Assembly (NCBI GenBank): GCA_963920705.1
Contig: OY987225.1
Span: forward strand, 7,565,013-7,629,012
Source: Odiellus spinosus
Taxonomy: Eukaryota; Arthropoda; Arachnida; Opiliones; Phalangiidae
Length of the DNA: 64,000 bases
Direction: 5' to 3'
In this document: piece after piece, positions 28,207 through 53,094 of the stretch
Position numbering within the stretch: position 1 is the first letter of the stretch
How the letters are laid out: every line of letters begins with the position of its first letter
Position numbers and translations under genes: made by a program
Notes under the pieces: generated by a model
Databases searched by the model: none
The model's input: only the letters and a program-made list of their open reading frames with translations
What the model was told of the DNA's origin: nothing

Positions 28207-28280
28207 TAATACAAAAAAAAAACAAGGGAAAACAAATTATAATAATAATAATTTATAATAATAATATGTATAAAATATAT

Positions 28281-28294: not shown

Positions 28295-28577
28295 TGTTAT
28301 AAAAAAAAAAAACCATGGGATTGTACTTTGATATATTACGTCATAGGTCGAAGGTCCCCCCCCCCTTCCCCCCCTTTAATTTTGTAGTTCGTCTGTCTGA
28401 ACAAGGCAGTCCAGTTAATACTCTCATCGTGAGTAGTCATGAGTAGTAGACTAATATTTTATATCTAGTTGAACTTAAATAATATGTTAATAAATTAATA
28501 CTTTATATACAATTAAATAATATGAGTTTATTTTATTCCGCCATCGTCAATTAACAAAATATCGTGTTTGATCAACA
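28295..28577 (+). repeat. Copia-4 3' LTR
   Basis: 283 bp, matching 25153-25431 except homopolymer lengths and one C/T change near the end. Confidence 0.95.
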
Positions 28578-28582
28578 AGAAC

Positions 28583-29466: not shown

Positions 29467-29488
29467 TTCTCCCACCCCAAAAAAAGAA
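29467..29488 (-). promoter_or_regulatory. Gypsy-1 polypurine tract
   Basis: In element sense TTTTTTTGGGGTGGGAGAA abuts the 3' LTR start TGCAACC. This is the expected plus-strand primer. Confidence 0.8.
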
Positions 29489-29765
29489 ATCGCGACATAA
29501 CAAAAACTCTAGAGAGAGGAAAATTGAAACAATTTGTTTTTTGACGAAAAAGTTTTTTTTTTTTTGCAACACAAAATTTTTCTCCTTCAAAAGGATTGAA
29601 ATAAATGAAAATCTTTAGAATATTATCTAGTTGGGGAAACGCGAGATCAAAAAATTTCTTTTAAGAAACATAATTTGGGTTTACCGTTGAAAATACAAGT
29701 TCAAAAGTTTTGAAACTGGGATAGGAATTAACCTTTTGAGGATTTGAGATTTCTCTTTAAATCTG

Positions 29766-29767
<2 letters not shown>

Positions 29768-29803
<36 letters not shown>
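29768..29803. repeat. Poly-T tract (36 bases)
   Basis: An uninterrupted T run inside the gypsy 3' region. The Lys-rich minus-strand ORF here is an artefact. Its length is likely uncertain in the assembly. Confidence 0.95.
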
Positions 29804-29804
<1 letters not shown>

Positions 29805-29903
29805 AACTAACATAATTTTTCAAAGAAAAGTTCTTAACCCTAGTAAGAAATTTTTCGTAACACAAAAAGTTTTTGACAAGTGGCCGCAGTTTGGTTTCAC
29901 CAG

Positions 29904-31450
29904 TTAATTTTTTGACGACATGGCGCCTCCCTGAGGTGGATCTCTTGGGTCCCTTGGGGTTTCGCGGCGAGCGAGGGTGTTGTCGACAATATTTCGCTGT
30001 TGATTTCGGCGCTGGAGCTCTTTCTCCCTGGTCTTTTGTAGAAATCGAGCAGGGCACCAGGTTACTGAATGTAACCCAATTTTTCCGCAGCCCAGACATA
30101 ACCCGTCCTTCGCAGGAGGACGTACTACCGGCCATCCGTTGTTATCAACCGGGTACCACCTTGTCTCGTCTCTACGGCTCATACCCGGAAATGCTAGCGG
30201 GATGTGGTATCTATCCAAAGGAGCAGTGTCTCGCAAGTTTGGTGGGTTTCGTCTTTCTTCCACGGTCAGTTCTTTTCGTCGGAAAACTGGTACCGGGAGT
30301 AATCCGTATGCTCCGAATGGGAGGTTTTTCGAAGATCTTCATATTTGGAGAGGATCGTGAATCGTATCGAGACCTTGGAGCTTGACGGGGAAGTATTGGG
30401 CTTGGGTTGGGTAATTCGTTTGACAACGTGGATGGACGTTCCGAATGTTGAGTCGGAGCGTGACATTGATAAAGGTCGCTTGAAGAAGAGATGGTTTGCC
30501 TCGGTCTTTGCTGTGAGCGAGGTCTAATTTTTCCCTGAGGTTCTTCTCGGTTTCGCGATTCTGGTCGGGGGGTTCAAAGGGTCCCATGATTACTCTCCTA
30601 GTTTGGACTTTACTTCCAGATGGCTCATCGAGGTTTGGCGTGCATATTGAGTACTGGACCTCCATGCTTCGAGTTAGGAGACGAAAATCGCCAAATTTGA
30701 GATCTGGGGGGGTTTCTTCCTGAAGAGCCCTTCTCGAACGTAAATCTTCCTTTTGACGAACCGACTGTACGAGGGCTGCGTGAGAGTTTCCAGGTTCCGG
30801 TCCTTCTACCCCTTCAAGTGGTTCTCTCAATAAATCCTGGGTGGGTTTGCTCTCTTCCCTGGTTGTTGACGAAGGACGAATGTTAATTTTTGGCGGTTAG
30901 TCAAGGCTTCTCGCTTGGTTTTGAGAGATATCCGAAGGGGGGAGTGATCTGGCTCCAGGTTGATTTTTTTCAAATTGGGTTTTTAAGGCTTCCCTTTCGT
31001 CCTTCGTGATCGTGCTTGGTTTCGATGATTCCTCTTGACGACTGTCTGCCGAGTGTCCTTGTGATGGTTTCGGTTTTCCTGACTGTATTTCGGAAAGGGT
31101 TTGTCCGTCTTCGGCTGACTCCACATTTTTTTCGGAATATTCTGGTAGTTTTCGTTCCAGCTGTTCTCTCGGCTTTATCGATCTCGGTGTTCCAGAGACT
31201 GGTGGATCTTCTAACCCGCCTACCGCGGCATCGTATTTGAAGGCTTCCGGGTCCGGACTTGACGGCGGAAACTCTGATGTGGTTGAATCGTGCCTCTGTA
31301 TATTAGATTCGTTATAGTTTCGATATAACAGCGTTCCATCACGTCGTACGTAATATTGAACATCTCCGTGTTGATTGGATGGTTTATCGGCCAAAACTGG
31401 TCTACCTCGTCCGATTCCGCCATACGTTATAATGGAGGGATCCACCTCGA
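29904..31450 (-). pseudogene. Gypsy-1 distal 3' ORF, second MBD-like segment and CCHC-like motif
   Basis: One frame is open over about 510 codons except for stops at 30897 and 30339. Near its start it reads GRPVLADKPSNQHGDVQYYV followed by RRDGTLLYRN and FKYDAA, which may be a very diverged MBD (D-V-x-Y-Y, then [LR]N, then F-x-[FY]). Pro/Ser/Glu-rich linker follows. Near the end lies NGWPVVRPPAKDGLCLGCGK then IGLHSVTWC, a C-x2-C-x5-H-x4-C knuckle one residue longer than canonical. It occupies the env position of gypsy-like elements but has no signal peptide or membrane segment, so it is not an envelope gene. Function unknown. Confidence 0.5.
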
Positions 31451-31572
31451 ATTTTTTTGTTTTATCCTGAAAAAGTTTTTATAATATATGAATGAAATTT
31501 ATTCCCCTATTTTTTCTATAAACACGCAATCGTGTAGCTCAGTCTTTTTTGGCAGCTATGGTTTCTGAGTAA

Positions 31573-32480
31573 TTACGCTACAGTCGTCCTTGAGCCTGGT
31601 TTCGCTATTCGAACTTTTTCCCAAGGGGGTAAAGCTAAGGGGTGACGTTGAAAATCGAAGTTTCTCTCTTCTAGATCAGTTATTTTGTTCTTAACTAAGT
31701 ATTTTGTTACCTCCGTCGGGGATCTTAATCTAGGGGGTTTCGGTCCCGGAGGATAGTAATAGATATCGAATGTTGGACCTCCTGGTTGTACCGTATATCG
31801 GTAACATAACTCTCTAACCCAGCCTTTTTTGAAGGGTTTTTTCAGATGATTCGGAACCTTCTGTCTTGCTTCCGGTTCTTCAGCTCCAGATGATATATCC
31901 TCATCAGATTTTTCTTCGACCAAGCTTTCGAATGTAATGTTTTCCGTGTTTTTCTTCGGAGAGGAAATGTTTTTCTTCTTTTTTTTCAACAATCTTTTCC
32001 CTCTTTGTATCGCCGCTTCCAATTCTGAGGGTGAGGATGACGGTTCTCGAGCCCGTTTTTTTTGTGTCCCTCAGGATTTCTTTCGTCAATAACGTACTTG
32101 TGTCCAATTTACGATCGATTTCGTTTCCTTCGGGTTCCGAAGTTGATACACTTGGACTGAGAGCATGAGTGACTCGAGGAACTTCTTGGGGCTCAATTTT
32201 CTGCTTCAATTTCTCCTTTTCTGGGCTTGATTCAGGGAGTGGAACGTTTTTCGCTAACTCGATGACTCGTTCGGGAGAGCTTGTCTCTTTCAACGAATCG
32301 ATACCGTGACTGGATACCCAATCAAGGAGCTCTTGTTGTCGAGCTTTTATCTATTCCGGACTCATCGGAGTATATCGATTTGGGGTGGTGTCTCGCTCGG
32401 GATCTTTGGATGGAGAGGATACAGGGGTTTGTGTGAGCCTTTTTGGTTCGGTCTCATTTAGATCCCTCGAATGAAATTCT
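31573..32480 (-). pseudogene. Gypsy-1 proximal 3' ORF with MBD-like domain
   Basis: Two overlapping frames (31904-32293 and 31573-32022) appear to be one former ORF with a frameshift near 31960. The first part is charged and rich in Glu, Lys, Ser and Pro. Then a Lys-rich stretch (KRLLKKKKK) and an acidic spacer lead to the MBD module at 31635-31838, and the ORF ends soon after. The ORF follows directly after pol in the same direction. It might be expressed by readthrough, reinitiation or splicing; no splice signal was decisive. Confidence 0.6.
31635..31838 (-). other. MBD-like domain in Gypsy-1
   Basis: It reads FKKGWVRELCYRYTVQPGGP, then TFDIYYYPPG, then PRLRSPTEVTKYL and NFDFQRHP. The pattern matches MBD: GW, first Arg, D-[VI]-Y, second Arg with Ser, helix with E..KYL, F-x-F. 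The loop before RS is three or four residues longer than in the Copia copies. All residues equivalent to MeCP2 R111, D121, Y123, R133 and S134 are kept. Divergence from the Copia versions suggests independent capture or old exchange. Confidence 0.82.
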
Positions 32481-32526
32481 TCCAAGTCGCTTTGTTCGGA
32501 TCCTATTCTCGTTTTCTTTCTCTCCC

Positions 32527-35390
32527 TTAGATCTCCCGAACACGGTTTACTAGATTCGGCGGGTCTCGTTTTTCTTTTGTCTCGTGGTTCAGATCGATCG
32601 TGTTCTTTCGGTTCTGGGTCGGGCGTTTGTCTACGATCCGATTCCGGTGATTTTTTCCCATTTGTCGTTCTGGTTCAGGATCTTCTCGCTGGTCAACTGG
32701 CTGTTCGGAGGGAGGTTCTTCTCCTTGTTCAACTTCCACTTCTAGAGGATGAGGTTCAATGTTGAACGGAGTGTCTGGGGTTTGATACAGTTTTAACTGT
32801 GCGATATTGATCGATCCGATGTTTTTCCTGGATATGGCGTCTGTTAAGACATAAACCAAAGGGCTTAATTTTTTCTCAATTCGGAAAGGTCCTGACCACT
32901 TTGGACAAAGTTTGGCCATTCTTCCGATATCTGCTCTAGATAAAGGGTGAGTGAGCTTCCAAACGAGGGTCCCAGGTTCGAATTCTAGATCTTCATGTCG
33001 TTTGTCGTAATATTTTTTCTGCTTTTCTTGTGCCAATTTTGAGAATTCTTTGGCTAGTTTCCATTGCTCATGGAGAATCGCTATAGTGGAGGTTCGATCG
33101 TCGAATTCTTCGATAGGCATCCCGATATCGAGATCCCAAGGAAGTCTTGGCTCTCGTCCCATGTTGAGATAAAATGGTGAACGTCGAGTTGTATCGTGGG
33201 GAGCCGAATTTATAGCGAAAGCTAACGAATCTAAGGTTTCGTCCCATTTTCGATGGTTATTTCCGACGTAGATTGAGGTTGTCTCTCCTAAGACACGATT
33301 CACTCTTTCGGTGAGATCCGACTGGGGATGATACGGAGTCGTATGGATCGGCATGATTTTGAATAGATCACATGTTTCTTTCCACAAGGTGGATACGAAT
33401 TGTTTTCCTCTATCGCTTAGGATTTGTTTCGGTGCTCCCCATCGACATACGAGACTTTTCAAGGCTATAGCGCAATCTGTAGTTGTAATAGCGGGCACGG
33501 GTACCAATTCGACATATTTTGTCATGTAGTCCGTGAAGACTATGAGGAATCGACTTCCACTCCGACTGATTGGGAAAGGGCCCATGATGTCCACACCTAT
33601 CTTATCCCATGGTGCTGTCGGTTGAGTTGACTGCATTAGGCCAGGAGTTCGTCGATTTCTTATTTTGAACTGTTGGCAGAGGATACATTGTCTAATGTAC
33701 GTCCTGACATCTTCTCTTAAGTGTGGCCACCAGTAGCGGGCTTCGACCTTCGCGATGGTTTTGTCTCGGCCTCTATGCCCGGACAAGGGATGTTCATGTA
33801 ACAGTCGCAGAGTTTCTCTTCTCAATTGAGTTGGTAAATATATCTTCTCCGGTTTGTGTCTGAACTCTCTTCGGTAGACGAGGTCATTGTGTATTACAAA
33901 ACGTGGATGAGGAGAAGCATTTTCTTTGGTTAATCGTTTTATTAAAACTGTCATCGTAGGGTCTTCTCTTTGGGCTGTGATGATATCCTTTCGATCGTAA
34001 ATGTGAAAATTTGCGTGTGGATATGGCGGAAGAATGGTTTCTCTGGGATCTTTCTCTTCGGTTTCCGAACTTGACAACGGGTCAATTCCAGGAGTGGTTG
34101 ATCCAGTTAGGGACATCGCTAAAAGTCCCAAAGGGGCACGTGACAATGCGTCCGCGACGACATTTTCTACGCCTTTTTTATGAGTGATCTTGAAATCGAA
34201 TGTTTGGAGATACATCGCCCATTTGACTAATCTTGAGTGGGGTTCCTTTAAGCTGAACAGCCACTGGAGGCTCTTGTGATCGGTTACAACCGTAAACGGT
34301 AGCGTTTCTAGATATGGACGGAAGTGTCCTACTGACCAGTATATCGCCAGACACTCCCGTTCGGTATTGGTGTAGTTTTGTTCTGCCTTCAATAAGCTTC
34401 GGCTAGCATAGGCTATAGGAACCTCGACGTTATCTTGTATCTGTGACAGCATAGCTCCTAATCCGATACCGGAAGCGTCGGTAGTCAAGATACAAGGTAG
34501 ATCGGAGTTGTATGGTGCGATCGCGGATGCTGTTGCAATGGCTTCCTTTATTTTTTGGAAGGCTTCTTCTTGGGCCTGTCCCCATTTGAAAGGAACATCT
34601 TTTTTCTTCAGTTGGTTTAAAGGTGCTACGATGTCTGAAAATCTTGGTACGAAACGATGATGCCAGCCGGCCATTCCCAAAAATCTTTGGACTTGTTTTA
34701 AAGTTTTCGGACGAGGAAATTCCTTGATCGCCTTGATCTTAGATGGATCAATAAATATTCCTTTCTCGTTTAGGATATGTCCTAGGACAATGGCTTCCGG
34801 TTGGGCGAATCGACATTTTTTTAATTGAAGAGTCAAGCCTGCGTTCTTCAGTTTCTGCATTACGTATTCGAGAGCGTTCTGATGTTCTCTCCAAGTTTCT
34901 GATGCGATGAGAATATCGTCCAGATATACCACGATGGAAAATGGTCCAGAATCTCTGAATATTTCGTCCATTGCTCTTTGAAACATTGAGGGTGCGTTAC
35001 ATAAGCCCATGGCAAGGACGTTGAACTCGTATTTACCCGCATGGGTAATGAAGGCCGTCTTCGGTTTGGCATCTGGGGCCAATTCGACTTGCCAATACCC
35101 ACTTTTTAGATCAAGGGCGGTAACGTATTTCGGCTTTCCCATCTTGTTGAAAGTTTCTTCTATACGAGGTAGAGGATAGCTGTCCTTAACGGTTACAGCG
35201 TTAACTTCCTGTAGGTCCACGCAAAACCGGGTTTTCGTTTGTCCCGTTCCTGAACCATCGTCTTGTTCGATGATCACTACGGGTGATGCCCAAGGGGATG
35301 TTGATGGACGAATGATTCCATCCTTTAGCATCTCGTAGATATGTTCTTCAATTATTCGTTTCTTTTCGTCGCTAACTCGGTAAGGACGTT
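32527..35390 (-). CDS. Gypsy-1 reverse transcriptase, RNase H and integrase
   Basis: 934 codons downstream of a frame change near 35395; RT really begins before the first Met (NKRPYRVSDEKKRIIEEHIY). RT motifs: DGIIRPSTSPWASPVV, FCVDLQEVNAV, YPLPRIEE, TALDLKSGYWQ, FNVLAMGLCNAP and catalytic VVYLDDILIAS. RNase H follows with TTDASGIGLGAMLSQ and VVTDHKSLQWL. The integrase zinc module is HEHPLSGHRGRDKT..C..C. The DDE residues are in GVDIMGPFP, ILSDRGKQF and PQSDLTERVNRV. The C-terminal GPF-type module (KWSGPFRIEKKL) is followed by a Pro/Glu-rich tail without a chromodomain. Length and order fit a full Ty3/gypsy pol. Confidence 0.94.
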
Positions 35391-36185
35391 TGTTGACTGG
35401 TTTGGCGTTTCGGTATGAATCTCGTTAACGACTAAATTTGTCCTTCCCACTTTATCGCTGAATAGTTCTGGGAATCGAAGTAGTAATTCTTTCAATTCCT
35501 TCTTCTGAGTTGGAGATAATGAAGTCGCATTTACCGCTTCGTATATATTATTTATCATTAATGGAGACGGTGGGCCTTTGTCCTTTGATATGTCTGTAAA
35601 ACGTAATATCTCGCCGTTTATGTTACAAGTCAAATTTTTGAAATCTATGACTACGCCCCAATTTTCTAGAAAATCTTGGCCTAGGATGGCGTCACAGAGT
35701 AAAGAGGGTACAATGTGAAATTCCTGCGAGAAACGTCTTCGGTTGTTGTTTTCAAAAGTAACTTCAAAGTCAAGTGTTACGGATCCTATCGTAAAGGTGT
35801 ATCTTCCGTCACCCATAACGATGCATTCGGAAATTTTTTCATGAGGGATGTAGTCTTCTCCTCTATGCTTTCTCAGATTTCTCCATTGTTCTGCGCTTAT
35901 CATCGAAACTTCGGCTCCATTGTCGATTCTCGTTATTAGAGGTCCATGTTCGAATTCGACGTTAATTTGATGTAAAGGTCTTTTGTTCAAGCTTCTTTTT
36001 CGTTGAATCGCTGCCAATGAATATGGGGGCTCTTGAGCGATACAACTTGTTTTTTCTTGGGCTATTGGGTTGTAGCGGGGGGTCGCTGGCCCACGTTTTG
36101 GCCTCCCGCTGGGGCGTTTCCCGGTTGGGATCTTCGTGATGAACAATTTCTTGAAAAGTGACCGGTTCCATTGCAATTGAAGCAA
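35352..36185 (-). pseudogene. Gypsy-1 protease region
   Basis: The frame carries the retropepsin motif TRIDNGAEVSMIS (about 35890-35930) and the flap/C-terminal block DAILGQDFLENWGVVID, then the linker to RT (TQKKELKELLLRFPELFS). The catalytic triplet reads D-N-G instead of the usual D-T/S-G, an odd substitution that may reduce activity. The frame shifts relative to the upstream zinc-knuckle frame (overlap at 36062-36185) and again before RT at about 35395. One of these may be a programmed Gag-Pol shift; the other is probably damage. Confidence 0.8.
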
Positions 36186-36625
36186 ATAATGTCTTGATTT
36201 TGAATGATGGGACGTGTTGGTTTTCGTTGTGCATTTTCCAAAATTCCTCGTGAAGGTTTGTTTCGCGAGTTGGGAGGAGCTGTTGTCGTGTTTAGTCTAT
36301 TTCCCGCTCCTTGGTTCTGATTTCTCCTGTTCGCTCCTTGATTCCCAGGCTGACGTTGGTTTTGGGCATAACCGGAAGGTGGGTACTGGTTGGCAGGCAC
36401 GTTCCAGGATGGACGCATTTGAACTTGATACGACGGTTGATAACCAAGATACGGCGCTTGCGTTGATGGAGCAATTGGAGGAGTTGCTGGCTGAAATGGC
36501 GGCCAGGCGAAAAATTGCTGCGGTAGTTGTGGTACGCCTGAAGGCGCGAATGAAAACGATGGCAGCCCTGGATATTGTAGTAACATCGGGCTTTGGGCTA
36601 TATTAGGTGTTGTTGTAGACATCGT
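36062..36625 (-). CDS. Gypsy-1 nucleocapsid segment
   Basis: A Pro/Gln/Asn-rich frame with one CCHC knuckle, IICFNCNGTGHFSRNC (about 36150-36195), followed by basic sequence. It continues the Gag ORF after a frame change near 36790. It would bind element RNA in the particle. Confidence 0.8.
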   Translation of the reverse strand, partial: TMSTTTPNIAQSPMLLQYPGLPSFSFAPSGVPQLPQQFFAWPPFQPATPPIAPSTQAPYLGYQPSYQVQMRPSWNVPANQYPPSGYAQNQRQPGNQGANRRNQNQGAGNRLNTTTAPPNSRNKPSRGILENAQRKPTRPIIQNQDIICFNCNGTGHFSRNCSSRRSQPGNAPAGGQNVGQRPPATTQ

Positions 36626-36768
36626 AATGATCGTTGATGGTTGAATAACCTGAGTGACTGGTTGATTCTTAATTGAGCTTGATGTCGAAGGAGTTCGAAG
36701 TGGAATTACCGATTTGGGGATAGCCGTTGATGGAGTTGGCGTTGTTTCTTCCGTAATTAAATTTCTTT

Positions 36769-38226
36769 TTAAACCCAGATTCTCTTCTTTAGGCAGTGCT
36801 CGTGGAGATCTGCTACGTTGTTTGTCGTTACGAAGGTTAAAAGTCCTCGAAATTCTGGTCGGATATTTCGTCTTAACATCTCGATCAAATCGTCTTCCGG
36901 TATTGGGGGAATTAACCCTTGGTTTATCCTTGAATAGAAGGTGAAGAATTCTTCTACCGTTTCCGTGGGACCTTGTAATCGGTTATAGAGATCTGCCTTG
37001 GCTCTGGCCTGCTCGTGATCAGCTCGATAATGTCTTTTAAATCTTCCTTTAAATTCATTCCATTCCATGGGTTGAGGTAATCCTCTATACCAAAATCGGG
37101 CATTTCCATGTAGGATCATTGGAAGTAAATCCATTTTCTGAGTTTCAGATAGACCATTAAATCGGGCGTATTCGTCATAGTCTCGTAAGAATTCGGAAAC
37201 CTTCTCTCCTTGGTTGCCGTGGAACGCTATATGGGTTGGGGGTTCCTTTAATCTTATTCCTCCTTTAACTTGAGCTAAAAGCTTGATCATCGAAGTTGAC
37301 CTTGGATATAATGGAGGTGAGTTTGGCTGAGACTGGTGCGGAACTGGTACATTCGTTGCTCTTGGAATGGGAGAAAGTTCTGGTATCGAGTGTGATTGTT
37401 GAGGCATTCCTGGTATATTAGTATAAATCCCTGGAGGTTGTTGTCCTTGAGGTGGAATCCAACCTTGATGTTGTTGAAAGGGAGTAGCAGTTGGTCCGCC
37501 TCCCTGATGTATCGTACTTGAAGCTTGTGGTAGGAATCCTTGATATAAAGATCCTGGTGGTACGAATCCTGGTTGTACCGAACCTTGAGGTACAAATCCT
37601 TGGGGCGGGCCTTGAGGGAAGACTTGTTGGGGGGTTTGGGTAGGTGTTGATTGTAGAATTCCAAATCCTCTTGCTCCGGAGGTATGACTTCCTGACGATG
37701 CTCTAGCTCTGGTCCCTGGGACTTGAGCTCGACCACGACCAATACCCAAAGGAGTAATACCAGGTAAGCTGGCTACCGACGGCGGTACTTGCGAGACAGT
37801 AGGTAGTCCCACCCCAACGTTTGAGGTTATGGGACGACCCATTTGAGTCACCGTAGTGGTAGCGGTAGTTAGTCTTACCTGTGTATTTACCCTCGTAACA
37901 GTGTTGGGGGTTTTATAAGAGGGAGCAGTCACTCTAACATAAGAAGGATTTGGGGCTAGCCATGCTATGGTAGGAATCATGCAAGTAGGCATTATCGAGA
38001 AGGATGTCGTAGGAGTGGTACCAGTAAGTGGTACTGACGAGAGAGTTTGAGTAGTCGTAGGACCTGAAGGTCCCACTGTTCCCGTTGTTCCCTGACTACT
38101 TGTATTCGTGATATTTGATATAGAATGTACTCCCCTTAATGTGGTAGTATTGGTAGTAATAGTAGTAGGAAATAAGTTATTAAATATGTTCATATTGGAT
38201 TGAGTAGTGGTCGGTGATAACGACAT
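36769..38226 (-). CDS. Gypsy-1 Gag
   Basis: The N-terminal half is extremely rich in Thr, Pro, Gly and Gln (PQQVFPQGPPQGFVPQG-type repeats). The C-terminal 150 residues form a retrotransposon Gag domain with FHGNQGEKVSEFLRDYDEYA, ARFWYRGLPQPMEWNEFK and FFTFYSRINQGLIPPIPEDD. The first ATG in frame is at about 38226, but the same frame stays open and coding-like up to about 38465 without an ATG. Translation may therefore start elsewhere or after splicing. Confidence 0.85.
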   Translation of the reverse strand: MSLSPTTTQSNMNIFNNLFPTTITTNTTTLRGVHSISNITNTSSQGTTGTVGPSGPTTTQTLSSVPLTGTTPTTSFSIMPTCMIPTIAWLAPNPSYVRVTAPSYKTPNTVTRVNTQVRLTTATTTVTQMGRPITSNVGVGLPTVSQVPPSVASLPGITPLGIGRGRAQVPGTRARASSGSHTSGARGFGILQSTPTQTPQQVFPQGPPQGFVPQGSVQPGFVPPGSLYQGFLPQASSTIHQGGGPTATPFQQHQGWIPPQGQQPPGIYTNIPGMPQQSHSIPELSPIPRATNVPVPHQSQPNSPPLYPRSTSMIKLLAQVKGGIRLKEPPTHIAFHGNQGEKVSEFLRDYDEYARFNGLSETQKMDLLPMILHGNARFWYRGLPQPMEWNEFKGRFKRHYRADHEQARAKADLYNRLQGPTETVEEFFTFYSRINQGLIPPIPEDDLIEMLRRNIRPEFRGLLTFVTTNNVADLHEHCLKKRIWV

Positions 38227-38918
38227 GTCTGACAAATTTAATTCAATACTCTCTAATTGATGTAATAATAAACGTGGTGGTCGTAATAACTTTCTAATAT
38301 TGAAGCCAGGTTGTTTATTCAGATCCCTCTCATCTAAACTATCATTTGGTTGTAAGGTATCCCAAGGAATACTCGCATTAGACGAGGGCGTGGAGGGGGA
38401 TTTTTCCGTTCGTGGAGTTTTAAAATTATCGTTTTTATTTGGGGAATTCAGTTTAATTTTTTGAAATATTCATTTATATAACCCTTATAAGTTTATCTAA
38501 TCTTTTTCCCAATAATTTTTTTTTTTTTTTTTTATTAGCGTTAAATTCCTTTCGTTTTTTCCCGTGAAAATAGGCCAAAACTTGTTTTAGCTAGGTTTTA
38601 GTTGTTACTATGGGAATATTTTCCAAAAAAAGGGCAAAAATGTTATTTCTTTATCTTTGATGACGTCAGCTAGACCCCTTTTCTCCCAGCGGCCGAGGGA
38701 AAAAGAAAAACTCTCGGGCCAGAACGGGCGAAAAATTTTCGCCTATCCCCCCCCGTCTAAGAAAGAGGAGGGTAAAGGTAAAACGGGGTGGACGCGAAAA
38801 TAAAGTAAACTACACGTATGAACAGGCAAACAATGTAAAAGATAATCAAGAAGATATCAACCCACAGATTTGGTATATTATCTGGGTGTAAATAATTGTC
38901 CATTAAAGAAAAAAGTGT

Positions 38919-38948
38919 CCCAGGTTCGAAGGACTGGTCACGGCACCA
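38919..38948 (-). promoter_or_regulatory. Gypsy-1 primer-binding site (tRNA-His)
   Basis: In element sense TGGTGCCGTGACCAG, then TTCGAACCTGGG a few bases on, matching the complement of the 3' end and T-arm of tRNA-His(GTG). It lies five bases after the 5' LTR. Confidence 0.75.
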
Positions 38949-38953
38949 TTTAA

Positions 38954-39540
38954 TGTAACCGGCCTTTTTTGATTTAAATGCAACAGGTACCTTGCAAAGT
39001 TAGGCCGAGTTTCATTAAGAGGGTTCCTATTCATAGATTGTTGAACGCCCCTCCCGAATCGGGTTTAGGCTAAGTGAATAATTAAAGTATGAAATCTCTT
39101 ACCGAATCGGTTGATTCCGTTGAGGATGAGTCATCTGAACTACTTGACCAGTAGATTCTGGGCATATTGAGAGTAAAGGACGATACCGTCGTTTATGTAG
39201 AACACAGTTTTATTTTCGGAGAATATAACAATAAGTCCGATGCTATACAATTGAATTACTTAGCGACGTTCTTAATAAATGATTATCACAGAAAAATTCC
39301 GCGACCTGACCTTAGTACACGGTTGAAAAACTAAAAACAATCTTCGCGCTGAGCTGCCTAGCTTCTAACCGTCTTGTTCTCTGCTCTTTCCTCTCTCTCC
39401 TTCGTTCCCTCATCTCCTCAAAAGGGGAGGGGCTTTTTTTCTGCAACCGGCGACCTCGAAAAAAGGACATAAACCCTGGTAGTTTGTCAGGGTCCCTTTT
39501 CTTGGGTAGTTAGGGTACCATTTCGGGGTCGTCGGTTGCA
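38954..39540 (-). repeat. Gypsy-1 5' LTR
   Basis: 587 bp with about three substitutions from 28880-29466. It would hold the promoter. Confidence 0.96.
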
Positions 39541-43533: not shown

Positions 43534-43770
43534 TGTAAATTGTTGAGCGTGTGACGAAATTAGACGACTAGTTTGCAGTTCTTTAATTAGTTTATTATTA
43601 ATTTAAGTTTAAGTTATATATACAATCGAATCTAAAGTATAATGAATCATCTTTTCTAAGAGGCTGAGCCTAACACACTAACTGACTGCCGTTTTTTTTC
43701 AGCAGACTCTAACAGCTGATCCATCACTGAACAACGCCCCCTATAGTTGACTTATCTCCCCCAAGGGTAC
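43534..43770 (-). repeat. Copia-3 3' LTR, part 1
   Basis: Matches 52813-53049. Interrupted at GGTAC by Copia-2; resumes at 48404. Confidence 0.93.
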
Positions 43771-44026
43771 TATTAAACTAATTATTTTTGTGGATTAAAT
43801 AACTCACTTATTTAAAACAACAATAGTTTATTAAACTTAAACTTAAACATTAAACTAAACATTAAATTCGTAGATCGAAATTAAAACACGACTAGGCTAC
43901 ATGGTTATCACCTCATAACTAAACATAAAACATCGACATGTCTTGATTCACAAAAACATCGTCTGCTATACAAAAAAACTTTGAACTTTTATAAGTACTG
44001 AACATAAGTAATCTATTTTTTCAACA
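43771..44026 (-). repeat. Copia-2 3' LTR
   Basis: 256 bp; TGTTGAAAAAATAG start and GTTTAATA end in element sense. The purine-rich AACCGGGTG lies just upstream. Confidence 0.96.
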
Positions 44027-44057
44027 CACCCGGTTACTTTAACAGTTCAAATTAAAT

Positions 44058-47000
44058 TTACATTAGATTTTCTAGCATACAAAAATATACCAATTTTCTT
44101 TTAGGCATAATTTTAGTTAACATATCTGCTAAATTCTCATTAGTATTCACAAATTTTAAACTGAAAACTTTTCGTTCAACACAATCTCTTACATAATGAT
44201 AACGCAGTTCTATATGTTTTGATCTATTATTTTCGATCCTATTATTTGAAAAATTTATAGCCGCTAAACTGTCTGTATAAATAACGGGTAATTCTATAAA
44301 GTCCATATTTCCATTAAACGCGATTTGATATAGTTCTTTCATAATTGGATTCAGCCACGAAATTTCTTTAGCTACTTCCGCCAACGCAATGTATTCGGAT
44401 TCCATACTCGAAAGTGCAACACTTGACTGTTTTACTGATCTCCAATTAACTGGATTATTTCCGATATTAATTATAAGTCCAGTCGTAGACTTCCTGTCAT
44501 CTATGTCTGATGACCATGACGCATCTGAATAAGCTTTTAATTCAACATTTTCAGTTCGATGATAATGTAAACACAGATCCTCTGTATCACAAACATAATG
44601 TAAGATTCTTTGTAAGTATTCGCAATGTTTAACGCCAGGGCTACTCGAGTATCTTGCTAAACTTGAAACTGCAAATGCAATGTCCGGTCTAGTTCTCTGT
44701 GCGATATATGATAATTCTCCGATCAAATTTCGATATGGAAAATCAATTGGTGAATTCGATCTGGAGTTATCCCCCATTGTCAATACTATTCCTTCCAATA
44801 ATGGTGTACTTGTCTGACGTTTTGATACAATCTTATATTTATTACGCAATTCTTGAATATAGCTCTTCTGATGAATATTGACTTTACCATCAGTAGGAAA
44901 TTCAAATTGAATTCCAAGGAAATAGCTCAATGGTCCCAAATCTTTAATGTCAAAATTATCGCTTATTTCGACGAGAAACTTTTCTATTAATCCATTATTA
45001 GGTGCAAATAATATAAGATCATCCACGTATACGATTAACAGACCATGGAATCCTCTTCGGTAAATACAATTCGTTCCAATAACTCTTTCATATCCAAGAT
45101 CTAACAGTGTTTTATCCAATTCAGAGAACCACTGTTTCCCACTTTGTTTTAGGCCATACAATGCTTTGCGCAATTTCCAAACATAAACTTCTTTCCCAGG
45201 TATCAAATATCCAGGAGGTTGTTTAACATACACCTCCTCTTCCAAATTGCCATATAAATAAGCACATTTAATATCAATGTGACGATGCATCCAGCCCAAA
45301 CATACCACAAATAATACGACACAAACCCGTATTAGAGTAAAATTTATGACTGGAGCGTACGTTTGATGATATCCTAAACCCTGATAATACTGTCCCATCT
45401 TCTTCGCTGAATTAATTCTCTTGTCATTATTGTTTACATCTTTATAATAGACGTCAACGCGACCAGCCATTACTCCCCGTTCTCTTATTATCTCCTCTCT
45501 TTTCCATTTTGGTACGTATATATTCTTGGTTGTTTTGACCTCTACAGTATCTTCAGCTGGAAAAAATTCATCTAATTCAATATCTTCATCATTAGATTTT
45601 TCTTTGATTACTTCCAGTTCCGTTATTTGAATAGGTCTTGGTTCCTTAGTTCGTATATCGTTTTCTTTATTATTTTCGGTGTCTTTTGATTTCACAGCTA
45701 TTTCATCCATGTTTGGCTTATTCCATTCCATCCACAAATTATTATGGACTATGAAATATTCACTAGTTGTAATATCATCCAAAACTTCTGTTCCTAGCCT
45801 CGTTTCGTCAAATGTGACGTGTTTGCTTTCAATGACAGTCTTTTCTTTAGGGTACCAAATTCTGTAGCCTCTTGTATAGACTGCATATCCAATCATGACA
45901 CCCTGTTTTGCTCTTCTTTCCAGTTTATTTCGATATCTCGGTGAGATATGCGTAAATGCGAGACATCCAAAACCCTTTAAATGTCTTACAGAAGGTTTCT
46001 TTCCAAACCATCTTTCATCAGGAACTACATTTGGTAACTTGGAATGTGGTAATCTGTTTGACAGATAAACGAAAGTATTTAGAGCTTCGCCCCAAAGATA
46101 TTGCGGTAACTTTCCATCTTCTAATAATGTTCGGACGCCATCCAATGCTGTTCGATTGAACCTTTCCGCGATTCCATTCATCTCTGGACTATATGTATTT
46201 GTCCTTTCTGTTTGAACGCCATCCTTAATACATTCCTCAATGAAATATTTAGCACAATATTCAAGGCCGTTATCAGTTCTCAATCGTCGTAACTTCATTC
46301 CCGTCTGTCGCTCAGCCCAAGATTTATATTTTAAATATTTCTGGAATGCTTCATCCTTGGTCGCCATGACATAAATAGTGACTTTGCGAGAGAAATCATC
46401 AATGAAACTGATGAAATACTTAGCTCCAGCTAATGACGCTACAGGAGCAGGACCCCAAACATCGCTATAAACCAATTCTAGTGGTTGAGTTGAAGAAATT
46501 CCAGTTATTGCTTTTGACGGACTCTTCGTAGATTTACCCAATCTACATGAAACACATACTTCCATTTCTTTAGGTAAATCTGGTATACCTTGAACCATTT
46601 TGAACTCTTGAAGTTGTTTCATACGCTGAAATGACGGGTGCCCCAATCTCTTATGCCATAATTTTGTTTCGCTCAAACTACTTATGTTACTGCCAGTTCC
46701 ATCATTGGGCTCCACAACTGTACCTTGTACAATATAAAGATTACTTTCCTTTAAATGTGCTTCCATGAAGAATCTACCGGCGGAATTATATACCTTTTTT
46801 CTTCCTCCAAAAGTAATAATTTTACAGCCGTTAATGTCCAATTTGCGCTCAGAAAACAAGTTTCGTTGATAATGCGGGACATAATATACGTCTCGTAAGT
46901 AAATAATTTCTTCAGAATACTCAGTTGAAACTTTAAGTGAAATATCACCTGTACCAATGGCCTTCGCTTCTCCTTGGGCCATATCAATCGGAGTATCAAC

Positions 47001-48041
47001 ATCTTTGTAATTAATCATCCAATCTTTACGATAACTGAAGTGATGAGTCGCACCACTATCGTAAACCCACATGTCGCTATCAGTAGAAGTGATTAATGCT
47101 GCCGAGTAAAATGATTGGCCTTTATTTCCCCGTCCGCGAGTACTTTGTTTTGACTGGTTCAGTTTATGCGTTTGGAGATGTAGTTTGTCTACGTCCGTTC
47201 TACAATACTTCGCTATGTGTCCATTTCTGTGGCAGCGATAGCATTCCAGTTTAGTTCTATCAGTAGTAGATCCCTGACTACTCTGTGGACCGCCATAACT
47301 TTGATCCTTTTCTGTAATTTGATTCTGAGAATAATTGTTTTTATGTCTATCGTGATAACGGTTTGGATATTTCTGTTTATTAACCACCGATGAAAAACCA
47401 CCCTGTTGACTCGTTACTAATGCATCATCTTCTTTCTTTAATTGTCGTTGTCGCTCATATTCGGCATTCAAAATAGGTTTTACATTAAATGTGGTAAACT
47501 TTTCTTTTCCCAAAGCATAAGCCATCTGTACCGCAAGTTCATACTGTGGCGGCAAACGATAAATCATTTGATAAGCTATATCATCATCGCCTAATTCTTT
47601 CCCGGCCATTTTTAAATGTTCTGCAGCTTCCAAAATTCTAGCGTGATAAGCTGCCATTGACTCTTCGGGCTTATATCGCATTTGATGAAATTCTCCTCTT
47701 AACGAAGCTATTCGGGCTATCGATTTAGGTTCGTGTATTTCCGCTAACCCAAGCCATGCCTCTTCAGCAGTATTAAACCGTGCCACGATATCCTTATGAT
47801 TATCATCCACCGCTAAAGCTATTCTCGATAGAGCCTGTTGTCGGCGATGTCTATACCTTTCATGAGCCTCCTCGGATGCCTTTTCACCAGGTGCTGATTC
47901 ACTTCCATCAGTAATATTCCATAAGCCACCATCCAATAAGAACATCTTCATATTAAACTTCCATCTTGCATAATTACTATCATCCAAAGGAGGAAAACCA
48001 AATCTGGGAGTCGTGTTGTTGTGTTGATAACCATGCGCCAT
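44058..48041 (-). CDS. Copia-2 polyprotein with MBD fused to a shortened RT
   Basis: 1327 aa. Copia Gag (1-235), knuckle CYRCHRNGHIAKYC (about 267), protease WVYDSGATHHFS (about 327), integrase zinc module LWHKRLGH..C..C (about 460), catalytic D in FIDDFSRK (about 545), D in RTDNGLEYC (about 589), E in MNGIAERFNR (about 625), integrase C-terminus (GYRIWYPKEKTV) and acidic linker. Residues about 842-885 are the MBD-like module. The chain then runs directly into QGLGYHQTYAPVINFTLIR, so the RT N-terminal fingers (the usual CRW..ARLVAQGY region) are deleted in frame. RT YVDD (about 1003) and RNase H (SDASWSSD, SMESEYIA) follow. Frame intact, RT probably inactive. Confidence 0.95.
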   Translation of the reverse strand: MAHGYQHNNTTPRFGFPPLDDSNYARWKFNMKMFLLDGGLWNITDGSESAPGEKASEEAHERYRHRRQQALSRIALAVDDNHKDIVARFNTAEEAWLGLAEIHEPKSIARIASLRGEFHQMRYKPEESMAAYHARILEAAEHLKMAGKELGDDDIAYQMIYRLPPQYELAVQMAYALGKEKFTTFNVKPILNAEYERQRQLKKEDDALVTSQQGGFSSVVNKQKYPNRYHDRHKNNYSQNQITEKDQSYGGPQSSQGSTTDRTKLECYRCHRNGHIAKYCRTDVDKLHLQTHKLNQSKQSTRGRGNKGQSFYSAALITSTDSDMWVYDSGATHHFSYRKDWMINYKDVDTPIDMAQGEAKAIGTGDISLKVSTEYSEEIIYLRDVYYVPHYQRNLFSERKLDINGCKIITFGGRKKVYNSAGRFFMEAHLKESNLYIVQGTVVEPNDGTGSNISSLSETKLWHKRLGHPSFQRMKQLQEFKMVQGIPDLPKEMEVCVSCRLGKSTKSPSKAITGISSTQPLELVYSDVWGPAPVASLAGAKYFISFIDDFSRKVTIYVMATKDEAFQKYLKYKSWAERQTGMKLRRLRTDNGLEYCAKYFIEECIKDGVQTERTNTYSPEMNGIAERFNRTALDGVRTLLEDGKLPQYLWGEALNTFVYLSNRLPHSKLPNVVPDERWFGKKPSVRHLKGFGCLAFTHISPRYRNKLERRAKQGVMIGYAVYTRGYRIWYPKEKTVIESKHVTFDETRLGTEVLDDITTSEYFIVHNNLWMEWNKPNMDEIAVKSKDTENNKENDIRTKEPRPIQITELEVIKEKSNDEDIELDEFFPAEDTVEVKTTKNIYVPKWKREEIIRERGVMAGRVDVYYKDVNNNDKRINSAKKMGQYYQGLGYHQTYAPVINFTLIRVCVVLFVVCLGWMHRHIDIKCAYLYGNLEEEVYVKQPPGYLIPGKEVYVWKLRKALYGLKQSGKQWFSELDKTLLDLGYERVIGTNCIYRRGFHGLLIVYVDDLILFAPNNGLIEKFLVEISDNFDIKDLGPLSYFLGIQFEFPTDGKVNIHQKSYIQELRNKYKIVSKRQTSTPLLEGIVLTMGDNSRSNSPIDFPYRNLIGELSYIAQRTRPDIAFAVSSLARYSSSPGVKHCEYLQRILHYVCDTEDLCLHYHRTENVELKAYSDASWSSDIDDRKSTTGLIINIGNNPVNWRSVKQSSVALSSMESEYIALAEVAKEISWLNPIMKELYQIAFNGNMDFIELPVIYTDSLAAINFSNNRIENNRSKHIELRYHYVRDCVERKVFSLKFVNTNENLADMLTKIMPKRKLVYFCMLENLM
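45385..45515 (-). other. Truncated MBD-like domain in Copia-2
   Basis: It reads VPKWKREEIIRERGVMAGRV then DVYYKDVNNNDKRINSAKK and MGQYY. First Arg, D-V-Y and the helix are recognisable, but the RS pair is replaced by R-I-N-S and the domain breaks off into RT before F-x-F. Probably no longer a working methyl-CpG reader. Confidence 0.65.
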
Positions 48042-48127
48042 ATTTATAATTTATTCCCTAAAAGTTAAGCCTTGGATCATCTAATCCCTAAAACGTTACT
48101 CCACAATTAAATCTCACTAAAGTTTTT

Positions 48128-48142
48128 AAAGCTCTGCTACCA
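48128..48142 (-). promoter_or_regulatory. Copia-2 primer-binding site
   Basis: TGGTAGCAGAGCTTT adjoins the 5' LTR, complementary to the 3' end of tRNA-iMet. Confidence 0.8.
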
Positions 48143-48398
48143 TATTAAACTAATTATTTTTGTGGATTAAATAACTCACTTATTTAAAACAACAATAGTT
48201 TATTAAACTTAAACTTAAACATTAAACTAAACATTAAATTCGTAGATCGAAATTAAAACACGACTAGGCTACATGGTTATCACCTCATAACTAAACATAA
48301 AACATCGACATGTCTTGATTCACAAAAACATCGTCTGCTATACAAAAAAACTTTGAACTTTTATAAGTACTGAACATAAGTAATCTATTTTTTCAACA
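48143..48398 (-). repeat. Copia-2 5' LTR
   Basis: 256 bp, no difference seen from 43771-44026. Confidence 0.96.
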
Positions 48399-48403
48399 GG
48401 TAC

Positions 48404-48441
48404 AAAGGTCACTATGTTAAAGGTCAAAGGTCACCATAACA
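48404..48441 (-). repeat. Copia-3 3' LTR, part 2
   Basis: Continues the LTR after Copia-2. It has one AAAGGTC unit fewer than the 5' LTR. The tract AAAGTGGGGGAG (element sense, 48443-48456) is the polypurine tract. Confidence 0.9.
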
Positions 48442-48518
48442 TACTCCCCCACTTTAACATACTAGGAATTATATAAAATTAGTATTATTAAAAATTATCG
48501 CTATATTAAGACGCAAAT

Positions 48519-51191
48519 TTAAGTTAACTTTAACATATTACAACAATTTTGAAAATTAAGTTTTGCCAATGTCTTTGTAAATATATCCGATACATTTTGT
48601 TTTGTACACACATATTTAAGATTAAACAGTTCTTGCGATAGTTTCTCTCGAATAAAATGATACCGAATGTCTATGTGTTTGGAACGGTTATTCTCGGTAG
48701 GATTTTTCGCGTAGAATATAGCGGATTGGTTGTCGCAAAACACATTTGGAGTAGGAAAATTGATGTTAAAGTTCTGCGATAATTCCTCTGTCATGGTTTG
48801 CAACCACATGAGTTCCTTCACGGCTTCTGTAAGTGCGACGTATTCAGCTTCCATGGTGGAGAGCGATACCGACTTTTGGCAAAATGATCGCCACGAAACA
48901 GGAGAGCTCCCATAAAAGCAAACAAAACCGCACGTTGACCTGCGGGTATCGCGGTCGCTGGCCCAATCGCTATCTGAATAGATGGTTATTTTAGATTCCG
49001 CCTCCTTTTTATACATCAGGCCATATTCTGCTGTATTGTTAACATATCTGGTAAGCTGGCATAATTGTTTCCAATGAAGAAGTCCGGGATTGGAGCTGAA
49101 CTTCGACAAGGCTACAACAGCAAAGAGGATATCAGGCCTTGTTTTTTGTGCCACATATAAGAGTGATCCAATCAGGGCTTGATAAGGGTACTTCTTCATT
49201 TGTTCTTTATCGTCTTCATCACTCGGACTATCATTCTTCGTTAGAATAGCGCCAGGGCTCAATGGTAAGCTTACCGGTATGTCGCAACTGATATTAAATT
49301 TTTCTGAAAGTGTCTTGATATAGCTTGACTGGTGCAATTTCATTCCTCCCTCTGGTGTATAATTGAATTCCACTCCTAAGAAATTACGAAGTGGACCAAG
49401 ACTTTTTAAGTCGTAGACGCCGGATAAGGTATTGTAGACTCCTTTCAGCGCTTCATCATTTCGTGCTATGACGGCCAAGTCGTCCACATATACAAGAACG
49501 ATAACTTTCAACGGGATAAAATATATACAGTTTGTACCAGCGAGCTTTGTATATCCGAATTTCCTAAACGTTTTGTCTAATTCGAGATGCCATTGTCTTC
49601 CGCTTTGAGGGAGGCCGTATAAAGACTTGAATAACTTTAAACAATACGCAGCCGGGTTCACCATTTCAAAACCAGGAATTGGTTTCATATAGACTTCTTC
49701 CGTTAAGTCCCCATATAGGTACGCATTTTTCACGTCGAGGTGGCAATGCACCCATCCCAATGTTACGACAAATACGGCGAGGAAAAAACGAATCAAAGCG
49801 AAGTTAACGACTGGCGAAAAAGTCTCATCGTAATCTATACCGGGTACTTGATTATATCCCTGTGCGATCAAACGTGCCTTATATCGAATTACGTTCCCGT
49901 CACCATCTCGTTTGATATTATAAATCCATCGGCAACCAGTTATTTTTGCTTTTTGGGGCCTTTTTACGGTCTTCATGACCTTACGTTCAGTCAGTGTCTG
50001 TACCTCTTCTTGCATAGCGTTTTGCCACAACTTCTTTTGAGGTGACTGCATAGCTTCCTCGTACGTGCTTGGGATAATTACCTCGGCACAATGGGCTTCG
50101 TATACTTCATCTTTACCCGGAGCTTCATCTGGATTCGGTTCAACTCGGACCTTTGACAGTGATTCGACGAAGTCTTGTTTACGAAAACTGAATAGCTTTA
50201 CGTCGTACGGTAGTGCCTTTTCGTCTAAGTATTGTTTCACCTTGAGACTTGATCGTAGTCTTTTACCCTCTGGGTTTCTATAATACACGTCAAAATCTCC
50301 TGCGGATGCTCCTGTTTGACGTACTATGAGCTCCCTTCGCCATCCCTTAGGTAGTTCACCTCTGTCGGAGTTATCAATCGGAGGAGCTTCGTTCTGTGAC
50401 TCTTTCGGTATTTCGACCACTGGCTCTTCTAGGACTTGGTTTTGTGGCTTTATCGTTATTTGTTCTTCCTCGTCTTCTGGCATATTAAACAACACCCTGT
50501 CCCTCTTAATTTCTTCTTTCTGCCCAGGAATTTTACCAATCTGACGTTCATCAAACGAAACATGTTTAGATTCCTTGACTGTATTTTCTTCAGGATACCA
50601 TATACGGTATCCTCTGGTGTATTGCGCATACCCGACAAGTATTCCTGGCTTGGCCCTTCGTTGCAATTTATTTCTTCTCTGTTGCTTATGTATATGCGAA
50701 AACGCTAAGCATCCAATCTGTTTCAAATGTCTGCAACTAGGTGTTTTACCAGTCCAACACTTTAGTGGGACTTTTTCGCCGAGTTTACTGTGTCGAATAC
50801 GGTTTTTCAAGTAAGCTGCGGTACGAACAAGCTCTGCCCACAAAGTTAAAGGTAACTTCGCTTCTTCCATCATAGTACGGGCCATATCTACAAGGGTCCG
50901 ATTAACCCTTTCCGCAACTCCATTCATTTGCGGCGAGTAGACGTTGGTTTTTTCATGTCGTATTCCCGCGTGATTACAGAATTCTTCGAATCGACGAGAG
51001 CAAAACTCCATTCCATTATCTGTGCGGATCTTCTTAATACTTTTTCCAGTTTCATTTTCTACGCGTGCCTTGTACATCTCGAAACATCGCAATACTTCAT
51101 CCTTTTTCTGGATTGTATATATCGTGATATGACGACTATAGTCGTCTATGAAACTGACGTAATAATAGGCTCCCCCTATTGACGGTGTTGG
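48519..51191 (-). pseudogene. Copia-3 integrase core, MBD, reverse transcriptase and RNase H
   Basis: This continues the upstream frame after the TGA at 51192. It contains PTPSIGGAYYYVSFIDDYSR (first catalytic D), IRTDNGMEFC (second D), MNGVAERVNR (E), the integrase C-terminus (RAKPGILVGYA, GYRIWYPEE), an acidic linker and the MBD (50170-50352). RT is complete, including CRWIYNIKRDG, ARLIAQGYNQVPG, VKNAYLYGDL and catalytic LVYVDDLAV. RNase H has YSDSDWASDRDTRRSTCGF and STMEAEYVA, with the SKHIDIRYHFIREKL terminus. Only the stop, which looks like loss of three bases in DVWGP, prevents full translation. Confidence 0.93.
50170..50352 (-). other. MBD-like domain in Copia-3 (best preserved)
   Basis: It reads LPKGWRRELIVRQTGASAGD, then FDVYYRNPEGKRLRSSLKVK, then QYLDEKALPYD and LFSFRKQDF. 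This matches the MBD consensus from W to F-x-F with no gap, including G-x-S-A-G before D-V-Y-Y. Equivalents of MeCP2 R111, D121, Y123, R133 and S134 are all present. It lies directly after the integrase C-terminus and before the RT domain, so after processing it would be part of integrase or RT. Confidence 0.9.
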
Positions 51192-52724
51192 TCAGACATC
51201 AGAGTGCACTAGCTGTAGAACTTCTTGACTTGGAATTGTTTTTAGGCCTTGCGAGGGTTTCGCAGTACTTTTGCTAACTTTACACGATAGGCAGGTATCC
51301 AACTTCCCTTGAAGAGACTGTAACCCTTGAAGCATTTCATGTTTTGCCATGAATTTTAAGTCTATTTCGTTAACATGGCCGAGCCTGCGGTGCCATAGTT
51401 CGATATCCCTATTTCCGGAACTGGTTGTTTGGTTAGCTTCTACGATTTCGCGTTGTGAAGTTGGATTAATCTGACTCGACGTTACTTTAGCTTCGAAAGT
51501 GTATAAATTACGATTTAATTTTGCCTCAAAAGCGATGGTACCGTGGGGGAAATAGACGATGCATTTCCGATGAGCGATAACTATTTTGAATCCAGCTTCA
51601 TCAATCAAACGTCCCGAGATGAGGTTCTTACCCATGAAGGGTGTATGTAAAACATTCTTCATTACAAATATATTATTCTTCTCTTGATTTATAACTTCGA
51701 ATCTTATATCGCCAATACCTTCAGCCTTTGATTTTCCTTCTCCGAGTGTTATATCCTTTTGCAGTGGAGTATAGGTGTGAAACCACTCTTTCTGGTTGCA
51801 TAAATGATGAGTGGATGCTGAGTCAAAAATCCATTCATTAGTAGAAGTTGATAAATAAGAGGCGGATGCAAAGAACGCTCCCTCTTCTCTTTCATTTCGT
51901 TTCGGACGTTGCGTGTTACCTCTCCTAGCGGAGCGGCAATCAGAGCTTCTGTGTCCCTTGCGACCACAATTGAAACAACTCCCTCGAAATGCATTAGGTG
52001 CCGAACGTCCTCGACCCTCGTATGTCGTTTTTCCATCTTGATTGTTAGAAGCGCTTCTGCTGTCGGTTCTTCTTGGTGCCTTTGTATATTGTGCGGCAAA
52101 AGCGTCGGTGGAGTCATACTGATTTTCCTTTATGGCTTGTCGTCCATATTCTGCGAGTAATCGCGCCTTTATATTTTCGGATGTAAACTCTCCATCGTCC
52201 AATTGATATAAATGCTGTACAAGTGACTCATAAGTATCTGGTAAAGTGCGAAGTAACTGGTAAGATATATCCTTATCTTGGACTGGTTCTCCTACTTCTA
52301 TGAGTTGCTGACGAGCTTGTAATAAACGTCCGATAAATGCGGACATAGTTTCTCCCGGCCGATATTTCAAGGTAAAAAACTGTTCTCGTAACACTGCAAT
52401 TCGGGCCCTTGACTGGGGTTCGAAAGTACCTTTGAGTTTGTCCCAAACTGCAGCAGCATCAACAATGCCCACAATCAAACTCCTATTGTCTTCATTTAAA
52501 GTCATAGCAAGTATGGAATACGCCTTGGAAGCCCTTGCCTTATATTTTAGTTGCTCTTCAGCTGTTGCACTGTCTTCAGGGGGGGCAACCTCCACTCTCG
52601 TCACTATATCCCACAAATTTCGTTCTCGGAGAAGCATTTCCACTTCAAACCTCCACTTAGTGTAATTCGTTGAGGAAAGTAATATAATATTTCCGATTGA
52701 TAATATATTACCACCTTCCGCCAT
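51192..52724 (-). pseudogene. Copia-3 Gag, protease and integrase N-terminus
   Basis: The likely start is the ATG of MAEGGNILSIG at 52724, though the frame is open to 52796 across the leader. Copia Gag (LLRERNLWDIVTRV, FFTLKYRPGETMSAFIGRL) is followed by knuckle CFNCGRKGHRSSDC, protease WIFDSASTHHLC (DSA instead of DSG), and the integrase zinc module LWHRRLGHVNEID..C..C. It ends LVHSDV then TGA, where DVWGP is expected. Confidence 0.92.
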
Positions 52725-52788
52725 CTTGCTTAGGCTTGCATACGTTTCGATACGTTTCCTGTACTGTTGAAAACACGGGCCTTGGCCT

Positions 52789-52809
52789 CGAACCACGTTG
52801 GTGCTACCA
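52789..52809 (-). promoter_or_regulatory. Copia-3 primer-binding site
   Basis: TGGTAGCACCAACGTGGTTC, three bases from the 5' LTR, is similar to the tRNA-iMet complement of the sister elements with mid-site differences. Confidence 0.65.
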
Positions 52810-52812
52810 CAT

Positions 52813-53094
52813 TGTAAATTGTTGAGCGTGTGACGAAATTAGACGACTAGTTTGCAGTTCTTTAATTAGTTTATTATTAATTTAAGTTTAAGTTATATAT
52901 ACAATCGAATCTAAAGTATAATGAATCATCTTTTCTAAGAGGCTGAGCCTAACACACTAACTGACTGCCGTTTTTTTTCAGCAGACTCTAACAGCTGATC
53001 CATCACTGAACAACGCCCCCTATAGTTGACTTATCTCCCCCAAGGGTACAAAGGTCACTATGTTAAAGGTCAAAGGTCAAAGGTCACCATAACA
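52813..53094 (-). repeat. Copia-3 5' LTR with AGGTCA direct repeats
   Basis: 282 bp, starting TGTTATGGTGACC and ending CAATTTACA in element sense. U3 holds three AGGTCA half-sites spaced by one base (53066-53086 on +) plus a fourth at 53051-53057. Confidence 0.94.

Follow-up and report, generated by a model that had tools for sequence, protein, structure and literature searches.

We analysed a window of 64,000 nt of Odiellus spinosus DNA (Opiliones; assembly GCA_963920705.1, contig OY987225.1, positions 7,565,013 to 7,629,012 of the forward strand). It contains Copia-B, a long terminal repeat (LTR) retrotransposon of the Ty1/copia type, in whose polyprotein a methyl-CpG-binding domain (MBD) lies between integrase and reverse transcriptase (RT). 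The residues that contact methylated CpG (mCpG) are intact in this domain, and MBDs at the same place are spread over one clade of the RT tree. The reading we prefer, with a probability of about 0.6, is that this captured domain has been kept between integrase and RT and tethers the integration complex to methylated chromatin. Copia-B is a further member of a kind of element already published; the unexpected part is a neighbouring Ty3/gypsy element with an MBD.

The MBD of Copia-B

The MBD (PF01429) was recognised from Pfam profiles, PDB comparisons, contact residues and a structural model. The initial annotation had placed it at 50170-50352 with no strand stated; the interval does hold the domain, which lies on the minus strand with in-frame limits of 50169..50351 and its starting GW at 50345. 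Hmmscan against Pfam-A returned PF01429 for the 61-aa segment (E 8.9e-16), for the 120 aa around it (63.1 bits, E 1.8e-17) and for P0001, the whole 890-aa open reading frame (ORF) that includes it (E 3.1e-16). The scores of these searches were 57.7-63.1 bits, and the curated Pfam cut-off is 21 bits. Among PDB sequences the top match was MBD2 (E 3.2e-11), and further matches were to MBD3, MeCP2, MBD1, plant MBD5/6, MBD4 and BAZ2 chains.

At the mCpG-contact positions Copia-B has R, D, Y, R and S, which we take to be the equivalents of MeCP2 R111, D121, Y123, R133 and S134, so all five are intact, as the initial annotation had it. That annotation also described the domain as free of gaps from GW to F-x-F. 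This holds for approximately the first 48 residues (query 5-52 against chain 21-68 of MeCP2 structure 3c2i), but towards the C-terminus an alignment with Pfam or MBD2 has to open a gap of 2-3 residues.

An AlphaFold2 model of the segment from the SH3-like domain to the MBD was made from a 7-row alignment. Over the MBD (residues 141-200) block means of the predicted local distance difference test (pLDDT) were 83-91, and the preceding linker had low confidence. The top 44 PDB matches of the model were all of MBD/TAM type, with a best E of 1.7e-5 and template modelling (TM) scores, normalised by target, of at most 0.84. The profile search and the structure prediction, both suggested by the initial annotation, thus gave a significant MBD match and an MBD-like fold; together the E-values and the fold match rule out a chance or spurious profile match. 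Judged by sequence and predicted fold, the Copia-B segment is a true MBD. It has the fold and contact residues of the host proteins MBD2, MBD1, MeCP2 and MBD4, and differs from them in sitting inside a retroelement polyprotein.

Copia-B itself spans 43534..53094 on the minus strand, with Copia-A nested in it, between CTTAC duplications at 43529-43533 and 53095-53099 (ends by eye). In minus-strand sense its 5' LTR is at 52813..53094, the first 237 nt being identical to the other LTR. The larger part of the 3' LTR is at 43534..43770 (minus) and resumes at 48404-48441 past the nested insertion (end by eye); near its end it has one 7-bp repeat unit fewer than the 5' LTR. The coding region runs in a single frame between 52838 and 48522 and is interrupted once, by a stop at 51192-51194. 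The piece at 51195..52838 (minus) encodes Gag (UBN2), a zinc knuckle, Pol_BBD and GAG-pre-integrase, and the piece at 48522..51191 (minus), P0001, encodes the rest of the integrase core, an SH3-like domain, the MBD, RT and an RNase H region. Domains in P0001 are ordered rve (6-87), SH3 (147-217), MBD (273-339) and RVT_2 (404-644), which agrees with the proposed position of the MBD between the integrase C-terminus and RT; the SH3-like C-terminal integrase domain (PF25597) was placed by Pfam at 50541..50753 (minus). UBN2 Gag, Pol_BBD, pre-integrase, rve, SH3, RVT_2, LTRs and a 5-bp duplication identify Copia-B as Ty1/copia. No Pfam match in Copia-B named a protease or RNase H, and the RNase H region is a probable assignment from alignment to relatives.

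MBDs in relatives and in the other copia elements of the window

Protein relatives of P0001 were taken from the best 120 of 4858 matches. Precomputed PF01429 annotations were present in 4 of these 120: P0003, P0004 (Trichonephila clavipes), P0006 (Araneus ventricosus) and P0014. Our own MBD hidden Markov model (HMM), built from nine sequences with P0003, P0006 and P0014 among them, found the domain clearly in 11 of the 120 (in P0004 and P0005 the second part only) and weakly in P0020 and P0026. Matches of this HMM in P0007, P0022, P0046 and P0088, at other protein positions and with E 0.24-0.76, were set aside as noise. When nine relative segments were scanned with Pfam, MBD was above the cut-off in P0015, P0016, P0017 and P0018, just under it in P0010 and P0012, and absent from P0019, P0020 and P0026. 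Where they align with it, the MBD-bearing relatives share 37-51% identity with P0001, and the nearest named copia relatives among the matches listed come from spiders and the pseudoscorpion Cordylochernes. A protein search with P0001 residues 255-400 only gave no match, which reflects its sensitivity limit, since the whole-protein search found the MBD-bearing relatives. In viral contigs searched with P0001, nine stretches matched a pattern and none was a relative.

Besides Copia-B, MBD sequence occurs in the window in two copia elements, one with a remnant only, and in one gypsy element. Copia-1 (16901..21967, minus; LTRs at ~16901-17209 and ~21659-21967, duplication CAAAG, ends by eye) is the third member of the clade in the window. 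Its Pol ORF is broken by frame changes; its MBD is at 18830..19126 (minus; Pfam E 3.5e-11), the five contact residues being intact by eye. Copia-A (43771..48398, minus) is nested in the Copia-B LTR between GGTAC duplications at 43766-43770 and 48399-48403, has identical LTRs (43771-44026 and 48143-48398) and contains one open frame of 1330 codons. The segment at 45336..45548 (minus) reaches E 0.0019 and 18.2 bits against the Pfam MBD, below the cut-off of 21, and is called an MBD remnant because of its position and sequence. It breaks off after ~24 recognisable profile positions, with the second half gone, and joins directly onto an RT that is without its N-terminal part (RVT_2 match from profile position 47). 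Copia-2 (25212..28578, plus) belongs to the same RT clade and has an internal deletion from the integrase core to RT; the MBD position is deleted, yet the frame is still open.

The copia RT tree, midpoint rooted, had 121 tips from 124 inputs (P0004, P0043 and P0087 were dropped for short overlap). All 13 MBD tips, namely ten relatives with Copia-B, Copia-1 and Copia-A, fell within one 19-tip clade with local support 1.0, which includes the spider elements P0005 (Trichonephila clavipes) and P0006 (Araneus ventricosus). Read most simply, this copia clade captured an MBD once, long ago, and the domain later decayed in places.

Conservation was compared over 10 clade rows without P0019, P0020 and P0026, which gave 45 pairs, or 24 in the case of the second linker. 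Mean pairwise identity was 0.35 in the MBD against 0.16 and 0.24 in the flanking linkers; RVT_2 reached 0.46 and the integrase core 0.49. It is very improbable that the domain is a functionless relic left by a chance capture, or that the profile match is spurious. The in-frame stop of Copia-B and the broken frames of Copia-1 would suit a relic, but the match at E 1.8e-17 is joined by a structural one, and the relatives, at 37-51% identity to P0001, keep an MBD that is better conserved than the linkers.

Of 13 rows, 8 keep all five mCpG contacts. Among the other rows, P0010 has a conservative change of R to K, P0018 has lost two contacts, and P0019, P0020 and P0026 have lost three or four. The MBD could be a general DNA-binding or structural module that serves integrase or RT as a DNA clamp or as a spacer, with methyl specificity incidental or lost. 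We consider this unlikely. The scaffold of P0019, P0020 and P0026 does align with MBD with the contacts gone, and none of the three matches the Pfam MBD, but the full set of contacts is kept in those 8 of 13 rows, in Copia-1 by eye, and in both gypsy MBDs described below.

The subclade of P0019, P0020 and P0026, which has an MBD-like scaffold in the same place but has lost most mCpG contacts, may have changed in function. With the scaffold kept and the contacts lost, its members are a ready negative control.

A proposed role in integration

In the reading we prefer, the ancestor of an arthropod Ty1/copia lineage would have captured an MBD, and many descendants would have kept it between integrase and RT. 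After proteolysis the MBD would remain at the C-terminal end of the mature integrase and could bind symmetrically methylated CpG of host DNA. The integration complex would thereby be held at methylated chromatin, as C-terminal chromodomains tie gypsy integrases to histone marks. The analysis shows what the domain is, where it lies, its contact residues and its spread over one RT clade; that the Copia-B copy binds mCpG, stays attached to integrase and affects targeting we infer.

Several observations weigh against this role. The in-frame stop at 51192-51194 is within the integrase core of Copia-B, so its MBD is downstream of a block to translation. Six of the 19 clade tips are without a clear MBD (P0008, P0112, P0019, P0020, P0026 and Copia-2; in P0019 a degenerate MBD-like segment was seen by eye), and deletions have removed the domain from Copia-A and Copia-2 in part or entirely. 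Conservation is lower in the MBD than in the enzymatic domains. Contact residues are lost in 5 of 13 rows, so not all members require mCpG reading.

Alternatively, the MBD could act as a reader of the element itself, binding its own methylated copies or cDNA and altering silencing, by shielding them from host repressors or recruiting these, with no part in the choice of insertion site. MBDs work in host repression complexes, and Copia-A lies within the LTR of Copia-B, a member of the same clade, which fits attraction to own methylated copies as a single case. Against this, the MBD is encoded beside integrase and neither as a separate protein nor with Gag, an arrangement more in keeping with work in the integration complex. 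We regard self-reading as rather unlikely, though the best placed of the alternatives to tethering. The lone nested insertion of Copia-A in Copia-B is no evidence of targeting. The observed/expected CpG ratio was 1.04-1.19 for the LTR elements, against 0.65 for the Copia-B LTR and 0.54 for a long interspersed nuclear element (LINE), values that say nothing on targeting.

The initial annotation knew of no named copia lineage defined by an MBD. This implied novelty does not stand: de Mendoza, Pflueger and Lister, in 2019 (Genome Res 29:1277-1286), reportedly described a retrotransposon family of arthropods that has captured a functional MBD, and Copia-B as a novel unnamed lineage is ruled out by it. 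That family is said to consist of Copia elements of Strigamia and the spider Stegodyphus whose MBD came from a host. Its MBD reportedly binds methylated CpG-dense DNA, insertion is said to be biased, and the authors are said to have hypothesised that the MBD steers integration to methylated DNA. By this description, an in-frame MBD in a copia Pol is common to that family and Copia-B, and spider relatives also occur in the Copia-B clade. The copia elements of the window add members to this published case of a retrotransposon with a reader of the host epigenome.

A passage of PMC11244446 cites the 2019 study among transposable elements that co-opt host chromatin regulators, and a passage of PMC11721087 refers to it, along with a second paper, for the accumulation of copia elements where CpG is dense in other arthropods. 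We recognised no other described MBD-bearing copia or gypsy elements in the open-licence literature searched besides the 2019 family. Retrotransposons of dinoflagellates and charophytes carry DNA methyltransferases (DNMT), according to part of the text of PMC5890265, and Copia and DIRS elements with DNMT3 are mentioned in part of that of PMC12344493. These elements, like those with an MBD, took up host DNA-methylation machinery, but in the form of a writer and not a reader.

A further parallel is with the chromoviruses of Ty3/gypsy, which have a chromatin reader at the integrase end that probably steers insertion. Their reader is a chromodomain for histone marks, whereas the MBD reads DNA methylation. 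The copia MBD lies between integrase and RT and not at the end of Pol because of the copia gene order.

A gypsy element with an MBD

The Ty3/gypsy element at 28880..39540 (minus) is bounded by LTRs at 28880-29466 and 38954-39540, which have 3 mismatches in 587 nt, and by a 4-bp duplication AAGC (by eye). It lies outside copia, unlike the 2019 family. Its Pol ORF (32530..35424, minus) has RT, RNase H, integrase zinc-binding and core domains and a weak SH3. An MBD-bearing ORF (31576..32070, minus; Pfam MBD E 1.2e-7) lies downstream of Pol and in its phase. Ten stops, including the terminal stop of Pol, stand between the two, so the copy is broken there or has another arrangement. No chromodomain was found in the frames scanned (the Pol ORF, the MBD ORF and 30900-31478). 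We make no chromovirus assignment for this element; it has an MBD in place of the chromodomain, which may work like one. No MBD in a gypsy element was found in the open-licence literature searched.

Relatives of the gypsy Pol were taken from the best 120 of 7586 matches. The best match listed, P0123 (44% identity over 94%), was the only one of the 120 with PF01429, and likewise the only one found by our own HMM. P0123 is an unbroken 1228-aa Pol with a C-terminal MBD at 1148-1216 (27.1 bits, E 3.1e-6) after the core and SH3, the same order of rve, SH3 and reader as in chromoviruses. The chromodomain profile PF00385 was present in five of the gypsy relatives among the matches listed, and in four of the five (P0187, P0234, P0238 and P0166) it followed the core and SH3. 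The nearest named gypsy relative among the matches listed was from Cordylochernes, and fish came next.

In the RT-integrase tree (119 tips from 121 inputs, P0134 and P0145 dropped), the gypsy Pol of the window and P0123 were exclusive sisters with support 1.0. Their MBDs are 35% identical over the overlap in 100 aligned columns, have residues in common flanking the domain on both sides, and both carry all five contacts. The fold model of the window gypsy MBD was poor (mean pLDDT 48.9), so its identity rests on sequence; the top 16 PDB matches of the model were of MBD/TAM type (best E 6.3e-3).

The ~2 kb between the MBD ORF and the LTR (29467-31575) have several short open frames, in one of which a possible zinc-knuckle-like motif was seen by eye. 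A Pfam scan of 30900-31478, the single frame scanned there, gave no significant match.

One capture or two

Because an LTR-bounded gypsy element with an MBD ORF is accompanied by the unbroken Pol of P0123 as its exclusive sister, we lean slightly towards a separate gain, in which a gypsy lineage also acquired an MBD at the C-terminal end of integrase. Two LTR superfamilies would then have convergently added methylation readers, side by side in one host.

The ranking of PDB scores hints at different donors for the gypsy and copia MBDs. MBD4 was first for P0123 (29.5 bits vs 17.0 for MBD2), and the window gypsy MBD gave BAZ2B 24.4, then MBD4 22.0 and MBD2 13.8 bits. MBD2 led MBD4 for Copia-B (46.3 vs 31.5 bits) and Copia-1 (40.9 vs 25.2 bits). 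The MBD-only tree gives no support to an independent gypsy capture and weakly favours the opposite: supports near its base were 0-0.69, copia MBDs were not grouped together, and the window gypsy MBD stood with copia P0006, P0014 and P0016 (0.69), apart from P0123. If the gypsy MBD is an independent capture, the presence of two unrelated superfamilies in a single host sets up a natural experiment, in which targeting through DNA methylation could be compared with targeting through histone marks from insertion sites and methylomes alone.

Neighbouring elements

A non-LTR element lies at 53073-55226 (minus). It has an endonuclease domain, and the ORF next to this contains a PHD finger (E 3e-5). 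The observed/expected CpG ratio of the element, 0.54, is far under those of the LTR elements. An ORF at 56066-57064 (plus) has a DDE_1 transposase domain (E 5e-21).
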